This document shows, piece by piece, positions 1,847-9,967 of a stretch of DNA of 64,000 nt (within the stretch, counting starts at the first letter, position 1; every line of letters starts with the position of its first letter). A program made the position numbers and the translations under genes. The notes below the pieces were generated by a model, which worked only from the letters and a program-made list of their open reading frames with translations, did not search any database and had not been told where the DNA came from. Source of the stretch: Moorella humiferrea. Its GTDB lineage: Bacteria; Bacillota; DSM-521; Neomoorellales; Neomoorellaceae. The DNA is taken from NCBI RefSeq assembly GCF_039233145.1, contig NZ_CP136419.1, forward strand, positions 1,028,001 through 1,092,000. Reading direction: 5' to 3'.

Positions 1847-2100
1847 CCCCGTTAGCCGGTATCGGACAAACCGGTAGGCCGCATCTAACAGATCGCGCGG
1901 AGGCGTCCGGCACCTGAAAGAATAAAGTGCTGGACCACTTGACGGTCAACGCAAGGCGAGAACTTTTATGGTTCTCCTTAAGGCCGCGCCTTGCGCCCGT
2001 GAAGTGCCGTTCTCCCGTCCGGGTGAGACTCCCGGGGCCGAGGTCTCCCTGTCGCGAAGCTTGCTCCCAGGGCAGGCAAATCAAATCCGAAAGGAGCGAA
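1847..2100 (+). ncRNA. Candidate guide (omega) RNA and right end of the IS607-type element
   Basis: This non-coding stretch directly follows tnpB, where TnpB guide RNAs are normally encoded. A strong hairpin is visible: 1951-1958 (gcaaggcg) pairs with 1987-1994, with an inner 5-bp helix 1959-1963/1971-1975 around a 7-nt loop. Further GC-rich complementary segments follow up to about 2090. No protein-like frame with a ribosome binding site is present. The exact RNA ends and element boundary cannot be fixed here. The guide-RNA role is inferred from position and structure. Confidence 0.5.
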
Positions 2101-2138
2101 AAGCCTGGTCATGGGGAGGCCGCCTAATAAGGATTGAC

Positions 2139-3743
2139 ATGATGTATCAAGAATTGTTAGGTTTTTTGAACCAGGCCAGTACAATGCAGCAGAGCTACAA
2201 GTTAAAAGCTAGTCCCTTGAGTGAAAAATACTTACTAGAGCTTAAGTTTCCGGGAAACGGCGATAATATTGCTGATGCAGACCGTTTACGCCAAGCACTG
2301 GAAACCCAAATTGGCTGTCCCGTGAGTATTCCTCTTGAGTTACTAAGGGAAATCCCGGAAAAGTTACGCCAGAATGATTGGAAGGTAACAGTAACTATAG
2401 GATACTACTGGCCTCCGGGGTGGGGGTTAGAACGACTGGTCGCCGAGTTAGTGGAAGTAGGGCCGGGTTCTGACCGGTTAGGACCTTTTGGCCTGGCGGT
2501 GGACTTGGGCAGTACCACTGTGGGAGGATATTTGTGGGATCTAGGTTCAGGTAAACTTCTCGCTGCTGATGGTGTGACTAATGCACAGACGAGGCTTGGA
2601 GAAGATATCCTGACTCGTATTCATTACGCAGCTACTCCTCAGGGACTAGCAGAACTGCAGCAGTTAGCAATCATGAGTATAAACAGGATAATTGATTTGG
2701 TGACCAAGCAGGCTAACATAGTACCGCAGGATATTACCGCAGGGGTAATTAGTGGTAATACAACTATGGTGCATCTATTACTGGGTCTACCAACAGCAAA
2801 TATCTGCCGGAATCCTTATGTGCCTGTAGTTAACGCTCCGGGGTTTTTCCCGGCAGCAATGATAGGTCTGGACCTCCACCCACGAGCTCTCGTTTACCTT
2901 TTACCCAGCGTAGGTAGTTATGTAGGAGGAGACATCCTGGCGGGTATTTTAGCGAGTGGTATGCACCGGCAAAAAGAGGTCAGCCTTTTGGCGGACATTG
3001 GTACCAACGGAGAAATGGTCTTAGGCAATCGAGAATGGTTGGTGGTAGCTGCTGGAGCAGCCGGACCAGCCTTGGAAGGTGGGGTAGTAGCTTGTGGCAT
3101 GCGGGCTGAACCTGGTGCAGTTTGTCAGGTTCGTATAGATCCGGATACAGGCAAGGTGACTTACCGCACTATTGAAGATGTACCCGCGCGCGGTATTTGT
3201 GGTTCAGGCATTGTGGATGCAATAGCTCAAGCGCTGCAAGCAGGGATCATTAATCAGCGAGGAGAATTACGTGAACCGCTTACTTCTCTAGTGGTTGTGC
3301 CGGCAGAGGAAAGCGCTACTGGCCATCCCATCGAGCTCACTGCCGTAGACATCCAGCGGCTGTTGCGCACCAAAGCTGCAGCCAATGCCATTATGGCTAC
3401 GCTGCTAGAGAGTGTTGGCTGTACTTTTGCCGATCTTAAGTACTTTTATGCTGCTGGTGCATTTGGCGATCACCTAGATATTGAATCAGCTATTACCATT
3501 GGGCTATATCCCGACCTGCCGCGGGAAAATATCATACGCTTAGGAAATAGTTCTGGTACAGGTGCCAGCCTGGTCCTTACTGACATTAATAAGGCACAGG
3601 AGTTAGAAGAAATATCCCGGCGCGTTACGTATCTGGAGATGAACAATAGCCAGCAATTTATGGCCCATTTTACCGCAGGCCTGTTTTTCCCCCACACCGA
3701 CCTTGACCTTTTCCCTACTGTTAAAGCTCGCCTAAAACACTAG
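2139..3743 (+). CDS. ASKHA-family ATP-binding protein, RACo/RamA-like (DUF4445), lacking the ferredoxin domain
   Basis: 534 residues from ATG 2139, chosen because AAGGA lies 7 nt upstream; longer in-frame starts would run through the structured tail of the IS element. Relatives are reductive activators of corrinoid proteins that use ATP to drive an electron uphill to cobalt. ASKHA motifs are clear: AVDLGSTT near residue 120, GNTTM, ADIGTNGE, CGSGIVDA and AAGAFGDH. Typical members carry an N-terminal [2Fe-2S] domain; here only the linker-like 110 residues precede the ATPase, and no CxxC cluster motif is seen. The gene is AT-richer than the core genes. The upstream IS element may have removed the missing domain. 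No corrinoid protein or methyltransferase is in the window, so the target is unknown. Confidence 0.75.
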   Translation: MMYQELLGFLNQASTMQQSYKLKASPLSEKYLLELKFPGNGDNIADADRLRQALETQIGCPVSIPLELLREIPEKLRQNDWKVTVTIGYYWPPGWGLERLVAELVEVGPGSDRLGPFGLAVDLGSTTVGGYLWDLGSGKLLAADGVTNAQTRLGEDILTRIHYAATPQGLAELQQLAIMSINRIIDLVTKQANIVPQDITAGVISGNTTMVHLLLGLPTANICRNPYVPVVNAPGFFPAAMIGLDLHPRALVYLLPSVGSYVGGDILAGILASGMHRQKEVSLLADIGTNGEMVLGNREWLVVAAGAAGPALEGGVVACGMRAEPGAVCQVRIDPDTGKVTYRTIEDVPARGICGSGIVDAIAQALQAGIINQRGELREPLTSLVVVPAEESATGHPIELTAVDIQRLLRTKAAANAIMATLLESVGCTFADLKYFYAAGAFGDHLDIESAITIGLYPDLPRENIIRLGNSSGTGASLVLTDINKAQELEEISRRVTYLEMNNSQQFMAHFTAGLFFPHTDLDLFPTVKARLKH

Positions 3744-3887
3744 TAGGTCGTGTCCTGAACCAGTTTTCGCCACAGCAAAACTTTATATCGTGTATAAGTT
3801 AAACTGATTGGACGTACAATCTTTTCTATGTTACATTCTTTTTATAGGTTACACCCTTAATGAAGTAAAGTAAGGAGAAGAGCAATT

Positions 3888-4817
3888 ATGATTAAAAAGT
3901 ACGCCAACAAGGGCTTTATACAACAACTGGATGGTACTTACGCTGTCTTAATTCATCCTCTCAATGGATACCTGGAACCCGAACAGCTAGAGGCCATACG
4001 TAAGCTAACCCAACAATACGGAAAGGCAAAGCTCACGGTTACCGAGGCTATCATGATTTACGGCATAAAACCCGAGGACCTTGACCAGGTGGCCGCAGAG
4101 TTAGAAAAGGTGCGCCTACCTTTGGCTGATATCGGTCCGGTGGTGCGAAATGTCAAAGTATGTTCCAGTCAGTATTGCAAGCACGTTATCCGCGATGTTA
4201 CTCCTCTGGCAGCGCAAATCAATCAGCGCCTCGCAGGAATGGCGACGCCGAAAAAATTTAAGATGGCCCTGAATGGCTGCCCCAATTCATGCGTGGAGGC
4301 GCAACTAAACGACCTGGGTATCATTGCTGTCCAGGACGGGTACTGGCTTTACCTTGGAGGCAAAGGAGGACGTCAACCCCAATTGGGTACTCGGCTGGAC
4401 ATGGTTATCAAGGAAGAGCATCTAGTCGAAACTGTCGAACGGATAGTTAAGGGCTATCTTCAGGTTGCCCAGAACGAGCGACTGGCTGAAGTTATTAACC
4501 GGATGGGCCTTCTGCCCTTCCTAAAGGTAGCACTGGCATGGAGTAGTGAAGGAATCAAGACGTGCATAGGCGCGCGGTATTGTAAAAACGGTGTTGGTGA
4601 TGTCCATACTATGGCGGAGCGCCTAGTCTCCTCCGGCAATTTACAAGGAAATATCACTATCAGTGGCTGCGGTAACGCATGTGCTGTGGACAAGGAAGCG
4701 GATTATAATATTGTTATTTTGAAAGACAGGTTATGGGTATATAAAAATGGCGATATGGATGTTGCTAATACGGATCAGTTGCCTGAGTATCTTAAAAGGA
4801 AGGGTATTTTAAAATAA
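3888..4817 (+). CDS. Small siroheme/[4Fe-4S] sulfite or nitrite reductase-like protein
   Basis: 309 residues; ATG 3888 follows AAGGAGAAG. The N-terminal 80 residues resemble the ferredoxin-like half-domain of nitrite/sulfite reductases. Two cysteine sets of the siroheme-cluster type are visible: C92, C97 with C131, C135 (GCPNSC), and C226, C232 with C261, C265 (GCGNAC). The canonical motif is C-x5-C...C-x3-C; the first set has x4 spacing. Standard subunits have one functional set, so two in a short protein is unusual. The likely role is multi-electron reduction of sulfite, nitrite or an unknown substrate in the cytoplasm. It lies between the ASKHA ATPase gene and a DsrE-like gene, which suggests a shared redox function. 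The substrate cannot be named. Confidence 0.8.
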   Translation: MIKKYANKGFIQQLDGTYAVLIHPLNGYLEPEQLEAIRKLTQQYGKAKLTVTEAIMIYGIKPEDLDQVAAELEKVRLPLADIGPVVRNVKVCSSQYCKHVIRDVTPLAAQINQRLAGMATPKKFKMALNGCPNSCVEAQLNDLGIIAVQDGYWLYLGGKGGRQPQLGTRLDMVIKEEHLVETVERIVKGYLQVAQNERLAEVINRMGLLPFLKVALAWSSEGIKTCIGARYCKNGVGDVHTMAERLVSSGNLQGNITISGCGNACAVDKEADYNIVILKDRLWVYKNGDMDVANTDQLPEYLKRKGILK

Positions 4818-4852
4818 CTTCAATTTGAGTTTAGCAGAGAAGGGGTGTTGGG

Positions 4853-5248
4853 ATGAATAGATTGAAAGTTCTTTTCCATGTTAACGAATCTGGCAGATGG
4901 CAAATAGTACTCGTGAACATCGCTAATTTTTTGAATGATGTTGGGCAAGGAAATGCTGACATCGAAGTAGTGGCCAACGGTGAGGCGGTTTCTATTTTCG
5001 GGAACAGGTGCCTCCTGGCCGGAAGTGAGGGTCAGGGGGCAAGCTGCGGGACGACAGCTAATGGATCGCTGGTAGAGCAGATGAAGAAGTTATCGGAGAT
5101 GGGAGTAAACTTTGTAGCGTGTCGGAACGCTCTCAAAGGTCAGTCTATCGACGAGGACAGCCTCCCCAACTTTCTGACAGTTGTACCGGCCGGCATAACA
5201 GAAATCGCCACGAAACAGGCTGAAGGGTATGCCTACATCAAGCCCTGA
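4853..5248 (+). CDS. DsrE/DsrF-like family protein (COG1416 type)
   Basis: 131 residues; ATG 4853 follows GAGAAGGGG. The fold signature of small DsrE/YchN-like proteins is recognisable: a beta strand at the N-terminus (KVLFHVNE), an ACRNAL segment around residue 90, and a C-terminal VVPAGITEIATKQ block ending in a YAYIKP-like tail. DsrE relatives carry sulfur on a conserved cysteine or act as small redox partners; the cysteine in ACRNAL fits this. It lies 35 bp after the siroheme protein and probably shares its transcript. No membrane segment or signal peptide is seen. The exact function is unknown. Confidence 0.75.
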   Translation: MNRLKVLFHVNESGRWQIVLVNIANFLNDVGQGNADIEVVANGEAVSIFGNRCLLAGSEGQGASCGTTANGSLVEQMKKLSEMGVNFVACRNALKGQSIDEDSLPNFLTVVPAGITEIATKQAEGYAYIKP

Positions 5249-5264
5249 TTATGTGTCCGCATGG

Positions 5265-5287
5265 AGGGGAAGTGAGAAACTTCCCCT
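5265..5287 (+). terminator. Hairpin after the DsrE-like gene
   Basis: A perfect 9-bp stem (5265-5273 with 5279-5287) closes a 5-nt loop and is followed by a T/A-rich stretch without a long T run. It probably marks the end of the siroheme/DsrE transcript, but termination may be incomplete. Confidence 0.5.
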
Positions 5288-5357
5288 TTAATGTAATTTG
5301 AACATACGGCAATAAAAAAAGGCCCGATCCAGCACAATAAGGGGGTAGTAAAATCGT

Positions 5358-6119
5358 ATGGAAGGAATTGTAGATTCTCATACACATGTTTCATTACTTC
5401 CGTTTGAAGGGTTGGAAAGTATGGCTCTGGCCGGAGTAAGGAAGATTATTGGCTGTTCCATGTTTTTCGGGGCCACATATGCGGAAACACTCTTTGATCA
5501 CTTCCACCAGATGTTAACCCTTTCCACGAGCAATGCCGCCAAAAATGGAATCAAGCTTTTCGTTACAGTTGGTATTCACCCCATGGGAACGCCGGAAAAC
5601 TGGCCCAGGGTAATCGACGCCCTTCCATCCTATCTTAATATGAGCGATGTTGTCGGTTTGGGCGAAATCGGCCTGCATGAGGGGAATAAGCGGGAACAGG
5701 ACGTCCTCCGGGAGCAATTAAAGATAGCCAAGGAATACGGGGTTCCGGTGATCATTCATACTCCGCCCCAGCACAGGGTAGAAATTACCGAAAAAACGAT
5801 TGAAATTGCCGCCACCGTTGGGATAGAACCCGGAAAAATGATCATCGATCACGCTAATTTAGACATCATTAACTTAATCGAAGACTTTGGGGCCATTCCC
5901 GGGCTTACCATCCGCCCGGAGGGGCTTACTCCCCATTTATTGCTTAATCACCTGGAACGTTTCCCACGAGGTGTTCTGAACAGCGATTACAGTAATCTCA
6001 AACCCAATGATCCCCTGGGCGTCCCCAGGGCCGTGCGGTACCTGGAACTGAACGGAGCTCCCCCGGAAATCATTGCGCGGATCGCGAGGTACAACGCTGA
6101 GGAACTTTTTGGTATCTAA
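5358..6119 (+). CDS. TatD-like metal-dependent hydrolase
   Basis: 253 residues from ATG 5358, with AAGGGGG about 13 nt upstream. The amidohydrolase TIM-barrel motifs are visible: DSHTHVS at residues 6-12, TVGIHPMG in the middle, GLGEIGLHEG, VIIHTP, IDHAN and a late NSDYSN aspartate. TatD enzymes are metal-dependent nucleases or hydrolases of the cytoplasm. The substrate is uncertain, and the sequence is more like the divergent TatD-related hydrolases than standard TatD. It lies downstream of the siroheme/DsrE cluster, separated by a hairpin, so a functional link is possible but not shown. Confidence 0.75.
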   Translation: MEGIVDSHTHVSLLPFEGLESMALAGVRKIIGCSMFFGATYAETLFDHFHQMLTLSTSNAAKNGIKLFVTVGIHPMGTPENWPRVIDALPSYLNMSDVVGLGEIGLHEGNKREQDVLREQLKIAKEYGVPVIIHTPPQHRVEITEKTIEIAATVGIEPGKMIIDHANLDIINLIEDFGAIPGLTIRPEGLTPHLLLNHLERFPRGVLNSDYSNLKPNDPLGVPRAVRYLELNGAPPEIIARIARYNAEELFGI

Positions 6120-6124
6120 ACGAC

Positions 6125-6144
6125 CAGGGGGGGCTACCCCCCTG
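6125..6144 (+). terminator. GC-only hairpin after the TatD-like gene
   Basis: An 8-bp stem of C-A-G6 against C6-T-G (6125-6132 with 6137-6144) starts six bases after the stop codon. No T run follows, so it may act as a transcript end stabiliser or a weak terminator. Confidence 0.45.
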
Positions 6145-6628
6145 ATATGGAAGGACAATGTCAGGCCCCTCCGAAAAATTTTTTCGAAACCCGTTTTTGG
6201 GACAGAAGTATCCTCCTACTACTTTAAGGCAGTAATTCAAAGTTGGGCTTTTACTGGTTTTTAGCTGCTTCCGCCCGGCTCTGACAGCCAATCATTGGCG
6301 GGGAGCAAGCCTGTCAAGGGCTGCGTAGCGGGCCGCAGGCTTTACCCTTCACTGCGTAGCGACCCGCCCTATAATCCCGGAGCTGCCGAGCGGATCTCGC
6401 TTTTTTTCCCTGTTTTGTTATCACCTCTTATCCAGGGTGCAGGGGGCAATAGGTGGGTTGGGCGAATACGACGGTTGCTCAACCTGATATGCGTGGATTG
6501 GTTACCACAAGACGTTTATGCGTCGGGAGCTGCCCCGGTCTAAAAACGTGCATCAGGTCAATATATGCCTGTCACATAGGGGAAGGGGTACCGAAGATTC
6601 TCCTTACCGCTAAGGAGTGAAAATCGTT
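6145..6628. other. Non-coding interval before the MazE-like gene
   Basis: No gene could be supported here. An 82-codon open frame at 6295-6543 has no ribosome binding site and a low-complexity, unrecognisable product. The decamer ctgcgtagcg occurs twice (around 6322 and 6350), and a palindrome of A5/T6 lies near 6172. The interval looks like decayed mobile-element or intergenic DNA. Confidence 0.4.
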
Positions 6629-6865
6629 ATGCAACCTCATGTGCAAAAGTGGGGCAATAGTTTAGGGATACGTATCCCTCTGTTGTTGGCCCCAAAAATA
6701 GGCCTTAGAGAAGGCACACCGGTTGATTTACAGGTAGATGACGACGCGATAATTATCCGCCGCAAACATTACAGCTTGGAACAAATGTTAGCCCAGGTTA
6801 AACCTGAAAATATTCATAGTGAAATAGATACCGGGCCTCAGGTTGGGCGGGAAATATGGTACTGA
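6629..6865 (+). CDS. MazE/AbrB-like antitoxin, orphan
   Basis: 78 residues from ATG 6629, with AAGGAG 11 nt upstream; GTG 6617 is less likely because it abuts that site. The N-terminus KWGNSLGIRIP is the signature of MazE-type AbrB swapped-hairpin DNA-binding domains. The rest is an acidic tail of the kind that wraps a toxin. MazE proteins neutralise MazF ribonucleases and repress their own operon. A mazF gene should follow with a small overlap, but the next 80 bases contain only short frames ending by about 6950. The toxin is therefore lost and the antitoxin is an orphan. Confidence 0.75.
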   Translation: MQPHVQKWGNSLGIRIPLLLAPKIGLREGTPVDLQVDDDAIIIRRKHYSLEQMLAQVKPENIHSEIDTGPQVGREIWY

Positions 6866-6948
6866 TTGGTATGCACCCTTCGGCGAGTCAGAGAAGGAGG
6901 TCCACCGGGTTCATGGCCATATAAGACCGCCCAGTATTAATGATTAGT

Positions 6949-7123
6949 CTTTTTCACTACCTTAGCAGGAACTCCCGTTCTGGTGGCGAATAGCAAATGT
7001 GGGTCAAAAAACCACCAGGGGGTTGAACATGTTAGCCATTGTCAATTCCGTCGTCCTGGTAGGCCTGGAGGGCCAAAGTGTACGGGTAGAAGTGGATATT
7101 AGTAACGGTTTGCCTGTTTGTGA
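6949..7123 (+). repeat. Direct repeat copy A: comM leader plus first 31 codons
   Basis: 175 bases aligning with 8342-8517 at roughly 90% identity. It includes the leader hairpin and the first 31 codons of comM. All five differing codons in the coding part are synonymous, so this copy evolved as a working gene before it was cut off. It bounds the left side of the VapBC-type cassette. Confidence 0.85.
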
Positions 7124-7136
7124 GAGTGTTGGTTAA
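7029..7136 (+). pseudogene. Truncated 5' end of a second comM copy
   Basis: A 35-codon frame starts at ATG 7029 with the same 31 residues as the intact comM at 8423, then diverges and stops at 7134-7136. The AAA+ and chelatase-like domains are missing, so it cannot be functional. It lies upstream of the VapBC-type pair. Confidence 0.8.
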
Positions 7137-7187
7137 ATTATATACACGAAATGTATAAGCTTATTGCCGCCAGCAAACCATTATGTA

Positions 7188-7216
7188 TAGGCAAAACCGT
7201 TTTTTCCCGTTATAAT
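7188..7216 (+). promoter_or_regulatory. Likely promoter of the VapBC-type pair
   Basis: A perfect TATAAT at 7211-7216 lies 17 bases after TAGGCA (7188-7193), a 4/6 match to the -35 consensus. It is about 95 bases upstream of the antitoxin start. An imperfect palindrome (tatac...gtata, about 7141-7157) further upstream could be an operator. Confidence 0.5.
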
Positions 7217-7312
7217 AGAATCAACTCATTGCATATTAAGCGTTGCTGGATTATCTAGAACCCAAACGCCTTTGACTTAAAGCATGATAGATCAAGAAGA
7301 GGGTGGGAGGTT

Positions 7313-7528
7313 ATGGCTGTAGAAAAAATCTATAACGCGATTAAAAGGCTCCCTTCCGCGGAGCGGGAAAAATTACGTCATCTGCTAGATAATGAGGATA
7401 CTGGCAATGAAAACACGAAAGCATTTGAAAGAGCAGCAGGTTCCTGGACCGACTTCGATGCTGACGGATTCATAGAAGAAATTTACCATCGCCGTAATAG
7501 CGCTGGCAGGACAGGTTCCGAATGGTGA
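7313..7528 (+). CDS. Putative VapB-like antitoxin of a PIN toxin
   Basis: 71 residues from ATG 7313, preceded by GGGAGG. The N-terminal half (VEKIYNAIKRLPSAEREKL) forms a predicted helix typical of small type II antitoxins. The C-terminal half is acidic and aromatic (GSWTDFDADGFIEEIY), like toxin-wrapping tails. Its stop overlaps the start of the PIN-domain toxin gene, so the two should be translated together. No specific DNA-binding fold could be named. The assignment rests on size, composition and neighbour. Confidence 0.65.
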   Translation: MAVEKIYNAIKRLPSAEREKLRHLLDNEDTGNENTKAFERAAGSWTDFDADGFIEEIYHRRNSAGRTGSEW

Positions 7529-7929
7529 TGGCAAAATACCTGGTCGATACAGATTGGGCGGTTTTTTATCTCCGGGGCAAGGAACCATTCGTAACGACTT
7601 TAAAAGAGTACAGGCAAAAAGGACTGGCCATAAGTGTAGTTACCATCGCTGAATTGTATGAAGGGGTTTTTAGAAGTGCAAAGCCAGAGGAAAAAGAAAG
7701 ATCATTGCGCGATTTTCTGAAGGGCATTTCCATAATAAATGTTTCCCCGCCTATAGCACACCTTTTCGGTCAACGAAGAGCGGAATTGCATAAACAGGGG
7801 TTAACAATCAGCGATTTTGACTTATTAATAGGTTGTACAGCGATATTTTTCAACCTAACGTTATTGACTAATAACAAAAAGCATTATGAAAAGATACCTG
7901 GGCTAACTGAAATAATTACTCTAGAATAA
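7528..7929 (+). CDS. PIN-domain ribonuclease toxin, VapC type
   Basis: 133 residues from ATG 7528, or two more from ATG 7522, which overlaps the antitoxin stop. PIN motifs are present: YLVDTDW near the N-terminus (first acidic residues), TIAELYEG (glutamate), ISDFDLLIG (aspartates) and a late TNNKKHYEKIPGL block. In many VapC toxins the last acidic position is aspartate; here asparagines lie in the TNN segment, as in several active members. VapC toxins cleave tRNA or rRNA. The pair is flanked by diverged copies of the comM 5' region. Confidence 0.8.
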   Translation: MAKYLVDTDWAVFYLRGKEPFVTTLKEYRQKGLAISVVTIAELYEGVFRSAKPEEKERSLRDFLKGISIINVSPPIAHLFGQRRAELHKQGLTISDFDLLIGCTAIFFNLTLLTNNKKHYEKIPGLTEIITLE

Positions 7930-8341
7930 AAATAGCTGTACCATGGCTCCATATAAGCAGATTGACTTGAATGCTAGTAGACATAAAAGTGGGTTAATAA
8001 TAGTTATTTTGGCGAAAACATTAAAAGATTATTTATAGTATAAACCCACATTTGTCCAGGTTCAAACTGGAAATAATTCTTCCAGTTAGACTGGATGGAC
8101 TTCGGCAGTATATCATATCGCCAACGGTACGTGACCGAAAGGATTAGCCCGCCGGTGGGACTGAAGGGGATGTTCAACTCCGAGACCAGCATAAGCCAGC
8201 CTCTTCCGATGGGTAGCCGGATTTGAAGGATATTATAGTAGGAGATAGTTGTATCCCGATAAACTGGAAAATATATTTCAGAACATTAAAGTCATCCCCT
8301 GAGCTGCCTGCAGAGAGATAGACCTCCACACGAGGCCTTTT
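7930..8341. other. Non-coding interval with structured segment between vapC-like gene and comM
   Basis: No gene is supported. From about 8080 to 8245 the DNA becomes GC-rich with several small hairpins: tccagt-tag-actgga at 8082-8096, cggt-acgtg-accg near 8126-8138 and ccc-gccggt-ggg nearby. This resembles the non-coding right ends of IS605-like elements, but no transposase is present. A weak terminator-like hairpin with T runs lies at about 8318-8347 before the comM leader. Confidence 0.4.
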
Positions 8342-8517
8342 CTTTTTTCACCACCTTAGCAGGAACTCCCGTTCTGGTGGCGAATAGCAAATATTGGACA
8401 TAAAACCACCTGGGGGTTCAAAATGCTGGCCATTGTCAATTCCGTCGTTCTCGTGGGCCTGGAGGGCCAAAGTGTACGGGTAGAGGTGGATATTAGTAAC
8501 GGTTTGCCTGTTTGTGA
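8342..8517 (+). repeat. Direct repeat copy B: leader and 5' end of the intact comM
   Basis: The right-hand partner of the 6949-7123 repeat. It contains a leader hairpin (8351-8355 with 8376-8380, inner pairing 8363-8366 with 8371-8374) that also forms in copy A with one G-U style change. It runs into the intact comM gene. Confidence 0.85.
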
Positions 8518-9967
8518 CATAGTAGGCCTACCGGATCCCTCCGTAAAAGAAGCCCGGGAGCGGGTGCGGGCGGCCATTAAAAATTCCGGCTTTGATTTCC
8601 CTTTACGTCGGATAATTGTTAACCTGGCCCCCGGAGATATTAAAAAAGAAGGGCCCATCTATGATCTGCCCATCGCCCTGGGCATTTTGATAGCGGCGGA
8701 AGAGCTGGGCGGCGGACCGGCGGTGCCTGTCTACGCGGTGGGCGAGCTCTCCCTGGAAGGTAGCCTGCGGCCTATACCCGGGGTTCTGCCCATGGCCCTG
8801 GCCCTACAAGAACTCCGGCCGGGAGCTACCTTCATCGTCCCGGCGGCCAATGCCAACGAAGCCGCCCTGGCCTCCAGGATCAAGGTGCTGGCGGCAGATA
8901 GTCTGGCCCAGGTGGTAGCATTCTTGCGGGGGGATGGGGAACTGCCCGAGGTTAAACCGGCGGCAGGAGAAATACCGCCTCCGGTTTTTAACGGTGTCGA
9001 CCTAGCCGACATCAAGGGTCAGATTGCCGCCAAGAGGGGATTGGAAATAGCGGCCGCCGGTGGCCATAATATCCTCCTCATCGGCAGTCCCGGCTCGGGG
9101 AAAACCATGCTGGCCCGGAGCCTGCCTTCAATCCTGCCGCCCCTCACCTATGAAGAGGCCCTTACCGTAACCAAGATTTACAGCGTCGCCGGGCTGCTGG
9201 CCCCCGGCCAGGGGCTGGTAACGGAGCGCCCCTTCCGAACACCCCACCACACAGCTTCAACGGCCAGCATTATCGGCGGCGGCCGTATCCCTAAACCCGG
9301 GGAAGTGAGCCTGGCCACCCACGGCGTCCTTTTCCTGGATGAAATGGCCGAATACCGCCGCGACGTTCTGGAAGCCCTGCGTCAGCCCCTGGAAGACAGG
9401 GTGGTCACAGTCTCGCGGGTGGCGGCCGCCGTTACCTATCCTGCCGATTTTCTATTGATCGGCAGCATGAATCCCTGCCCCTGCGGCTACTATGGCGATC
9501 CGGTCAAGGAATGCCTGTGCACCACCCACCAGGTCGCCCAGTACCGGAAAAGGTTATCCGGGCCTTTACTGGACCGGATAGACCTGCACCTGGAAGTTCC
9601 CCGGCTGACCTACCATGAAGTCGAAACCGGGACCACGCCGGAAAACTCGGCTGCTGTAAGGGAGCGGGTTACGGCCGCCCGCCTGAAGCAGCGGGAGAGG
9701 TTTAAGGGGACGGGGGTGGCCTGCAATGCCGCCATGACCCCGCGCCAGGTACATCAATTTTGCCGCCTGGAACACCAGGCGCGCGCCCTTTTACGCGATG
9801 CCTTCAACAAGTTGGGCCTCTCCATGCGGGCCCATGACCGCCTGCTCAAGGTGGCCCGCACCATCGCCGACCTGGAAGGATCGGAGTTGATAACTGCCGC
9901 CCACCTGGCTGAAGCTATCCAGTACCGCAGCCTGGACTGGGGCGAAGAGAAACAGGCAATACGGTAA
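8423..9967 (+). CDS. comM: YifB/ComM family Mg chelatase-like AAA+ ATPase
   Basis: 514 residues, ATG 8423 after GGGGG. The order is typical: an N-terminal ChlI-like domain (about 20-140), a Walker A motif GSPGSGKT near residue 220, Walker B with LFLDEMAEY, a CPCGYYGDP cysteine loop, and a C-terminal winged helix. In Gram-negative bacteria ComM is a helicase that helps branch migration of incoming DNA during transformation; the Firmicute role is assumed similar. dprA, another DNA-uptake gene, lies 2 kb downstream. A truncated, synonymously diverged copy of its 5' end lies upstream at 7029. Confidence 0.9.
   Translation: MLAIVNSVVLVGLEGQSVRVEVDISNGLPVCDIVGLPDPSVKEARERVRAAIKNSGFDFPLRRIIVNLAPGDIKKEGPIYDLPIALGILIAAEELGGGPAVPVYAVGELSLEGSLRPIPGVLPMALALQELRPGATFIVPAANANEAALASRIKVLAADSLAQVVAFLRGDGELPEVKPAAGEIPPPVFNGVDLADIKGQIAAKRGLEIAAAGGHNILLIGSPGSGKTMLARSLPSILPPLTYEEALTVTKIYSVAGLLAPGQGLVTERPFRTPHHTASTASIIGGGRIPKPGEVSLATHGVLFLDEMAEYRRDVLEALRQPLEDRVVTVSRVAAAVTYPADFLLIGSMNPCPCGYYGDPVKECLCTTHQVAQYRKRLSGPLLDRIDLHLEVPRLTYHEVETGTTPENSAAVRERVTAARLKQRERFKGTGVACNAAMTPRQVHQFCRLEHQARALLRDAFNKLGLSMRAHDRLLKVARTIADLEGSELITAAHLAEAIQYRSLDWGEEKQAIR

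Follow-up and report, generated by a model that had tools for sequence, protein, structure and literature searches.

Probable accretion of integrase-less cassettes that resupply the promoter and 5' end of comM in Moorella

Elements at gene ends and the Moorella comM locus

Integron cassettes carry no integrase, share a common end sequence, are rich in toxin-antitoxin pairs and are stacked one way at one platform. Elements of the SXT/R391 family resupply the start of prfC. They integrate at the 5' end of that gene, and are presented in the relevant part of the source as large and conjugative, with their own tyrosine integrase (PMC2791158). CIMEs (cis-mobilizable elements), which derive from ICEs or IMEs or are mobilised by them through matching att sites, accrete site-specifically, and in the section of PMC5704250 devoted to them they lack recombination genes, have attachment-like borders and form tandem stacks at the end of one gene. 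In Acinetobacter, AbaR/Tn7-like and other islands sit in comM and often destroy it (PMC11472951, passages on these islands), and sr1WO prophages, which carry a large serine recombinase, insert site-specifically in a Wolbachia magnesium chelatase gene and split it (PMC9203015, passages on the insertion site).

The window analysed here is a stretch of 64,000 nucleotides from Moorella humiferrea, and probably contains a filled site at a recombination hotspot in comM (codons 31-32), where small integrase-less cassettes accrete by site-specific recombination, each with a replacement promoter and 5' end; it is one instance of a pattern found across the genus. In the proposed mechanism, the left end of a cassette would be a conserved tail and its right end a promoter plus comM nt 1-94. 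Insertion by crossover at comM nt 93-96 would turn the old promoter and start into a scar joined to the tail (copy A in the window), and would join the cassette-borne promoter and start (copy B) to the comM body, leaving comM intact; repeated insertion would produce head-to-tail scars upstream of comM, with different cargo after each. The scars, the common tail, the common switch point, pairs of empty and filled sites and the intact comM are seen directly. To complete the scheme, the cassettes would pass through a circular form, the site-specific recombinase would act in trans or would have disappeared since, and comM would be transcribed by sigma-H.

Like integron cassettes, the comM cassettes are integrase-less and rich in toxin-antitoxin pairs, with a common end, a single orientation and one platform, but here the platform is a coding gene that is rebuilt each time, and no PF00589 protein, the family searched for an integron integrase, lies between the tails and comM. 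They resemble CIMEs (PMC5704250, same section) in being bordered by comM start/tail on the left and comM start/body on the right with a common switch point, and in lacking integration genes of PF00589, PF07508 and PF00239 between the truncated copies and comM; they differ in that the target is the comM 5' end, the cargo is mostly very small (toxin-antitoxin) and an integrase-bearing relative was not found, and for this last reason they are not filed as CIMEs. SXT/R391 likewise enters a conserved gene at its 5' end (PMC2791158, same part). As at prfC, comM is rebuilt by the cassette's own gene end (full length in 10 genomes, with native starts decoupled from gene bodies), whereas the cassettes span 1-15 kb and no element-encoded integrase of the same three families was found. 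The Acinetobacter islands share the target gene but, in the passages cited, inactivate it, whereas the Moorella elements rebuild it, with a full-length comM in each of the 10 genomes that make up the native set (PMC11472951). The sr1WO prophages also target a gene annotated as magnesium chelatase, a likeness by annotation, but there the gene is split (PMC9203015). The open-access literature searched yielded no account of such cassettes in the comM of Moorella. The system would combine the CIME type of accretion, in which elements lacking an integrase pile up at one end of a gene, with a 5' end that restores the gene, as for SXT/R391 at prfC.

Truncated comM starts, their tail and their cargo

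A repeat search of the window finds a 183-nt direct repeat (6950-7132 and 8344-8526; 90% identity, spacing 1394), the two copies of which, A and B, are the sole two matching places in their own genome in a whole-genome search. Up to codon 31 the copies have different codons at positions 2, 9, 10, 11 and 21, and all five differences are silent, which upholds the initial annotation of repeated comM 5' ends whose coding parts differ synonymously only. From codon 32 (GAG/GAC) the copies diverge: copy A reaches a stop at codon 36, after 35 codons, and copy B continues as a full-length comM of 514 aa, assigned to YifB/ComM by profile search (Table 1).

Table 1. Features of the comM region, in window coordinates
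Feature	Position	Strand	Evidence
Orphan mazE-like antitoxin gene	6617..6865	+	PF04014, 42.2 bits, cut-off 24.7
Copy A flank	6862..6945	+	3' part also flanks intact comM of G005; flank also found in G003 and G009
Orphaned sigma-H-type promoter motif (copy A), facing vapBC	6964..6992	+	Pattern match G000:1034964-1034992
Copy A, comM nt 1-94, putative displaced resident start	7029..7122	+	Repeat, G005 alignment, Fst
Proposed crossover zone, comM nt 93-96 of copy A	7121..7124	+	Fst step from nt 92 to nt 96
Conserved tail, proposed left end of inserted cassette	7123..7159	+	17 sites in 8/15 genomes
Small ORF, 71 aa, putative antitoxin	7313..7528	+	Position only; overlaps vapC start
vapC-like PIN-domain toxin gene	7522..7929	+	PF01850 E 3.8e-10; NCBIfam VapC E 2.4e-27, below cut-off
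Proposed right part of cassette, up to new comM promoter	7930..8341	+	Continuous G009 match, window 7284 to 8448, 95%
Sigma-H-type promoter motif of working comM	8358..8386	+	Pattern match G000:1036358-1036386
Copy B, comM nt 1-94, putatively cassette-borne	8423..8516	+	Window vs G003: mismatches 6/164 promoter side, 199/1471 beyond
Intact comM (YifB family)	8423..9967	+	TIGR00368 609.8 bits; single full-length copy

Between the two copies lies a vapBC-like pair. The VapC-like protein scores above the PF01850 cut-off and below those of the NCBIfam VapC models, and so has the PIN domain of a VapBC toxin. The preceding 71-aa protein has no family match in Pfam, NCBIfam or PADLOC and is a putative antitoxin by position alone; its gene is kept together with vapC in G003, G004 and G009. 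PADLOC has no match for the toxin-antitoxin proteins of the window. The orphan mazE-like gene upstream of copy A is probably what is left of an earlier mazEF cassette.

Copy A was searched against 41 genomes and matched 14, several of them at four to six places each. The comM-start copies are of two kinds, native copies that continue into comM and truncated copies that continue into a common tail, which consists of GAGAGTGTTGGTCAAATT followed by a looser stretch of about 18 bases (about 36 bp overall). The mean pairwise difference among truncated copies rises from 0.12 (nt 97-111) through 0.34 (nt 112-131) to 0.62 (nt 132-148). With up to three mismatches allowed, the tail pattern occurs at 17 sites in eight of 15 genomes, with up to five per genome, and its reversed control at none, in a sample with one genome per species and several truncated copies on short contigs. 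Searched against 18 genomes of the family, the tail consensus returned 16 places in seven genomes, all at sites already known. All 11 tails on the same contig as comM lie upstream of it and are co-oriented with it. The cargo behind the tail includes vapBC (the window, G009 and G004), mazEF (G005, G009 and G010) or mazE (G002 and G003), arsenic-type ArsR/permease genes (G016), the gene set that occupies window positions 1968-6119 (G004) and further genes elsewhere. An origin of the tail as the end of an insertion sequence is not supported, since the tail was found solely beside comM starts or their remnants.

Beyond the genus sample, neither the tail pattern nor a degenerate comM-start pattern has any match in IMG/VR, and the comM-start peptide has none among plasmids and phages. 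A regular expression for duplicated starts, applied to 80 wider loci, returned no match at all in 58 and is too insensitive for other taxa. Truncated comM starts with tails also occur away from comM, on another contig or about 119 kb off (L126 in G016 C1; L127 at G009 C1:2505312). The comM of G006 (L264, C11) looks broken: only its C-terminal third is left (query residues 349-510), and the upstream part is unrelated sequence. Transposase-like, AAA-ATPase-like and small zinc-finger-like ORFs, named by eye, form a set (L123:5901-8892, and L112:15906-17945 with L113:1-951) that adjoins truncated copies in G002 and G009, with opposite orientations to these copies, and is possibly a separate transposon.

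Which of the two starts is resident is indicated by empty and filled sites. In G001, which is empty, a foldase-like gene (named by eye) leads directly into intact comM; in G009, which is filled, the same foldase-like flank is followed by a truncated start, the tail, vapBC and comM. In alignment, ACCGCCCAGTATTAATGATTAGTC, the flank of copy A in the window, also borders the uninterrupted comM in G005, a genome with mazEF and no vapBC ahead of comM; BLAST matches this flank to L121:5308-5392 (96%) and L113:11558-11632 (92%). The G001/G009 pair and the G005 flank indicate that truncated copies are displaced resident starts, copy B being read as the newcomer that came with vapBC. The promoters are mosaic: the core of the G005 promoter is closer to copy B, and the promoter of the G009 truncated copy is closer to copy A of the window than to G001. 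In G003, vapBC stands ahead of comM without a truncated copy, which was apparently lost by deletion.

Divergence between genomes indicates that the vapBC block was transferred between species. Between vapB and a point 93 bp ahead of comM, the window differs from G009 at 25 of 1016 positions (2.5%), against 223 of 1639 (13.6%) beyond. The vapBC genes are conserved, but their left neighbour (7140-7284) is unlike G009 and their right neighbour (7923-8340) is unlike G003, indicating that the pair also moves by other exchanges. Toxin-antitoxin pairs here pass between species as very small cassettes.

Position of the crossover and competing explanations

The switch point was located by two independent analyses. 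Of the truncated copies, 16 (from 20 places) were compared with 10 native copies, 26 sequences in all, omitting L112:6251 and L121:997, in which little comM is left, and L131 and L117, which depart from comM at other points; unless decay explains them, L131 and L117 are evidence against one fixed point. Fst between the two classes is 0.01 (nt 1-30), -0.02 (nt 31-60), -0.03 (nt 61-80) and 0.03 (nt 81-94), then 0.58 (nt 95-99) and 0.72 (nt 100-110), with polymorphisms common to both classes through nt 92. In 300 label shuffles, which ignore relatedness, the observed Fst was reached 145 times for nt 1-94, 64 times for nt 81-94 and never for nt 95-110. Mean identity over nt 1-94 is 85.3 within truncated copies, 85.4 within native copies and 85.4 between them (17 truncated and 10 native); truncated and native starts are thus indistinguishable there, and the tail must have been joined to different comM starts on many occasions.

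The second analysis used native genes only. Among eight of the genus (28 pairs), the correlation with gene-body distance is -0.11 for the promoter and 0.07 for nt 1-94, then 0.87 for nt 96-189 and 0.66-0.92 beyond; when two outgroups are added (45 pairs), r is 0.28 for nt 1-94 (0.65 for nt 1-47 and 0.01 for nt 48-94) and 0.82 for nt 96-142. Together, the Fst step and these correlations point to repeated crossovers at codons 31-32 of comM. Pairwise scans add detail: from the promoter, the window differs from G003 by 6 mismatches in 164 positions and then 199 in 1471, with the switch at nt 75 (interval 44-105); from vapB the counts are 21 of 529 and then 355 of 1968; and G003 and G009 switch at nt 16. 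The window-G009 scan, the window-G003 scan from vapB on and the G003-G009 scan show exchange elsewhere than at codons 31-32 too. A candidate inverted repeat around the crossover was dropped, axis 95 ranking only seventh of 121 axes.

Candidate recombinases were sought in the families PF07508, PF00589 and PF00239 (14, 14 and 11 genomes, respectively), and none is encoded between truncated copies and comM on contigs holding both. The nearest PF00589-type gene is XerC-like and lies about 8 kb downstream of comM, and the tyrosine or serine recombinases of the genome include XerC, XerD and proteins of 313 and 543 aa. A Xer/dif origin finds little in its favour, as a dif consensus, with up to three mismatches, matches in one of five genomes (G010) and is by eye unlike the crossover site. 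No integrase-bearing relative with matching att sites was found in the genomes searched, IMG/VR, plasmids or phages, and a phmmer search with 13 query ORFs, for recombinase-like ORFs near comM across the 80 wider loci and those of the genus, returned only L052 and L085, with no linkage found. The recombinase may have been lost, may act in trans or may belong to another family; as both analyses, independently of each other, narrow the switch to a few bases, the search for this enzyme is directly testable.

The cassette model is supported by the tails in eight of 15 genomes, the Fst step, the native-gene correlations, the G001/G009 pair, the divergence of the vapBC block and the intact comM; it is weakened by the recombinase not found, by L131 and L117, by the outgroup correlation at nt 1-47, by the mosaic promoters, by G003 and by the distant scars. 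An unlikely alternative is ordinary RecA-dependent recombination: blocks with a comM start on either side would have moved by transformation, or as circles cut out between direct repeats, a single founding rearrangement having made the first tail and homology having spread the others. The 183-bp repeat is available homology for this, comM itself is placed in the transformation pathway in part of the source (PMC11472951), and the mosaic promoters fit it, as do those pairs that switch at nt -93 or nt 16. RecA-dependent exchange would, however, let linkage to the tail decay gradually and keep together the starts adjoining it, whereas Fst is still near zero at nt 81-94 and jumps within the next five bases; in native genes, too, the history changes there, and unrelated cargo stands behind one and the same tail. 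The mosaic promoters and the G003-G009 switch nevertheless indicate that homologous exchange acts in addition to cassette insertion.

The remaining alternatives fare worse. That the comM start and tail form a MITE-like repeat copying itself around the genome would suit the repeated units of 180-230 bp, the up to five tails per genome and their occasional distance from comM, but truncated copies are not a lineage of their own over nt 1-94 and all same-contig sites lie upstream of comM in a single orientation, which makes such a repeat very improbable. The initial annotation had proposed import of a block by single-ended recombination, copy A and vapBC arriving together from a strain in which copy A was the comM start. 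Its import of a block, as opposed to simple tandem duplication, is borne out by the low divergence of vapBC from G009; the joint arrival is contradicted by the resident flank of copy A (G005; G001/G009) and by its junction with the tail instead of a lost comM body, and no allele with vapBC directly after a full-length comM of copy A was seen in the genomes read, so that little credence is left for it as a whole. Of single-ended recombination, the fixed-point crossover indicated by the Fst and native-gene analyses takes the place, though homologous exchange in the promoter region does also occur. A simple duplication of comM in tandem, the first gene then decaying, would give two alike starts in direct orientation, but the tail is non-comM sequence common to unrelated cargo in many genomes, and this origin can practically be discounted.

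Promoter motif and expression of the cargo

Sigma-H promoters have an AGGA-type -35 box and a GAAT-type -10 box at fixed spacing. What the initial annotation called a leader hairpin includes AGCAGGAA-N13-GGCGAATA (N14 in some copies), a pattern with 65 occurrences in 10 of 14 genomes against one for the reversed control, and a frequency of 4-10 per genome in the family; an Rfam search of positions 6000-9000 gave no match, and the element looks like a sigma-H-type promoter instead of an RNA hairpin. Among 18 motif sites whose neighbours were read, one lies ahead of a STAS/SpoIIAA-like gene that has a SpoIIAB-like gene behind it, another ahead of ComFB, the remainder preceding mraZ-like, fabZ-like, metabolic and various other genes (most names by eye); the sites are likely a sigma-H regulon that includes comM. 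Nine of the 10 native copies retain the exact motif, as do 10 of the 16 truncated ones, suggesting that the unit restored by each cassette is promoter plus start.

The scars retain sigma-H-type promoter motifs facing the new cargo. A candidate sigma-70-like promoter for vapBC lies at 7188-7216 (one of seven such sites in the region, 4.4 being expected by chance), and with it the copy A promoter may add to vapBC transcription and need not drive it. A tentative and rather doubtful extension is that comM is the platform of an integron-like system, in which a trans-acting recombinase would insert integrase-less cassettes at codons 31-32 and remove them again. Every cassette would bring a sigma-H promoter with a comM start at its end, so that each insertion would rebuild the competence gene, and through the promoters left displaced, expression of toxin-antitoxin pairs may be coupled to competence or sporulation.

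At the left edge of the window, a TnpB-like ORF (137-1846) is preceded by a Resolvase-domain ORF that straddles the window start (G000:1027692-1028081), a pair which we take to be an IS607-like arrangement.
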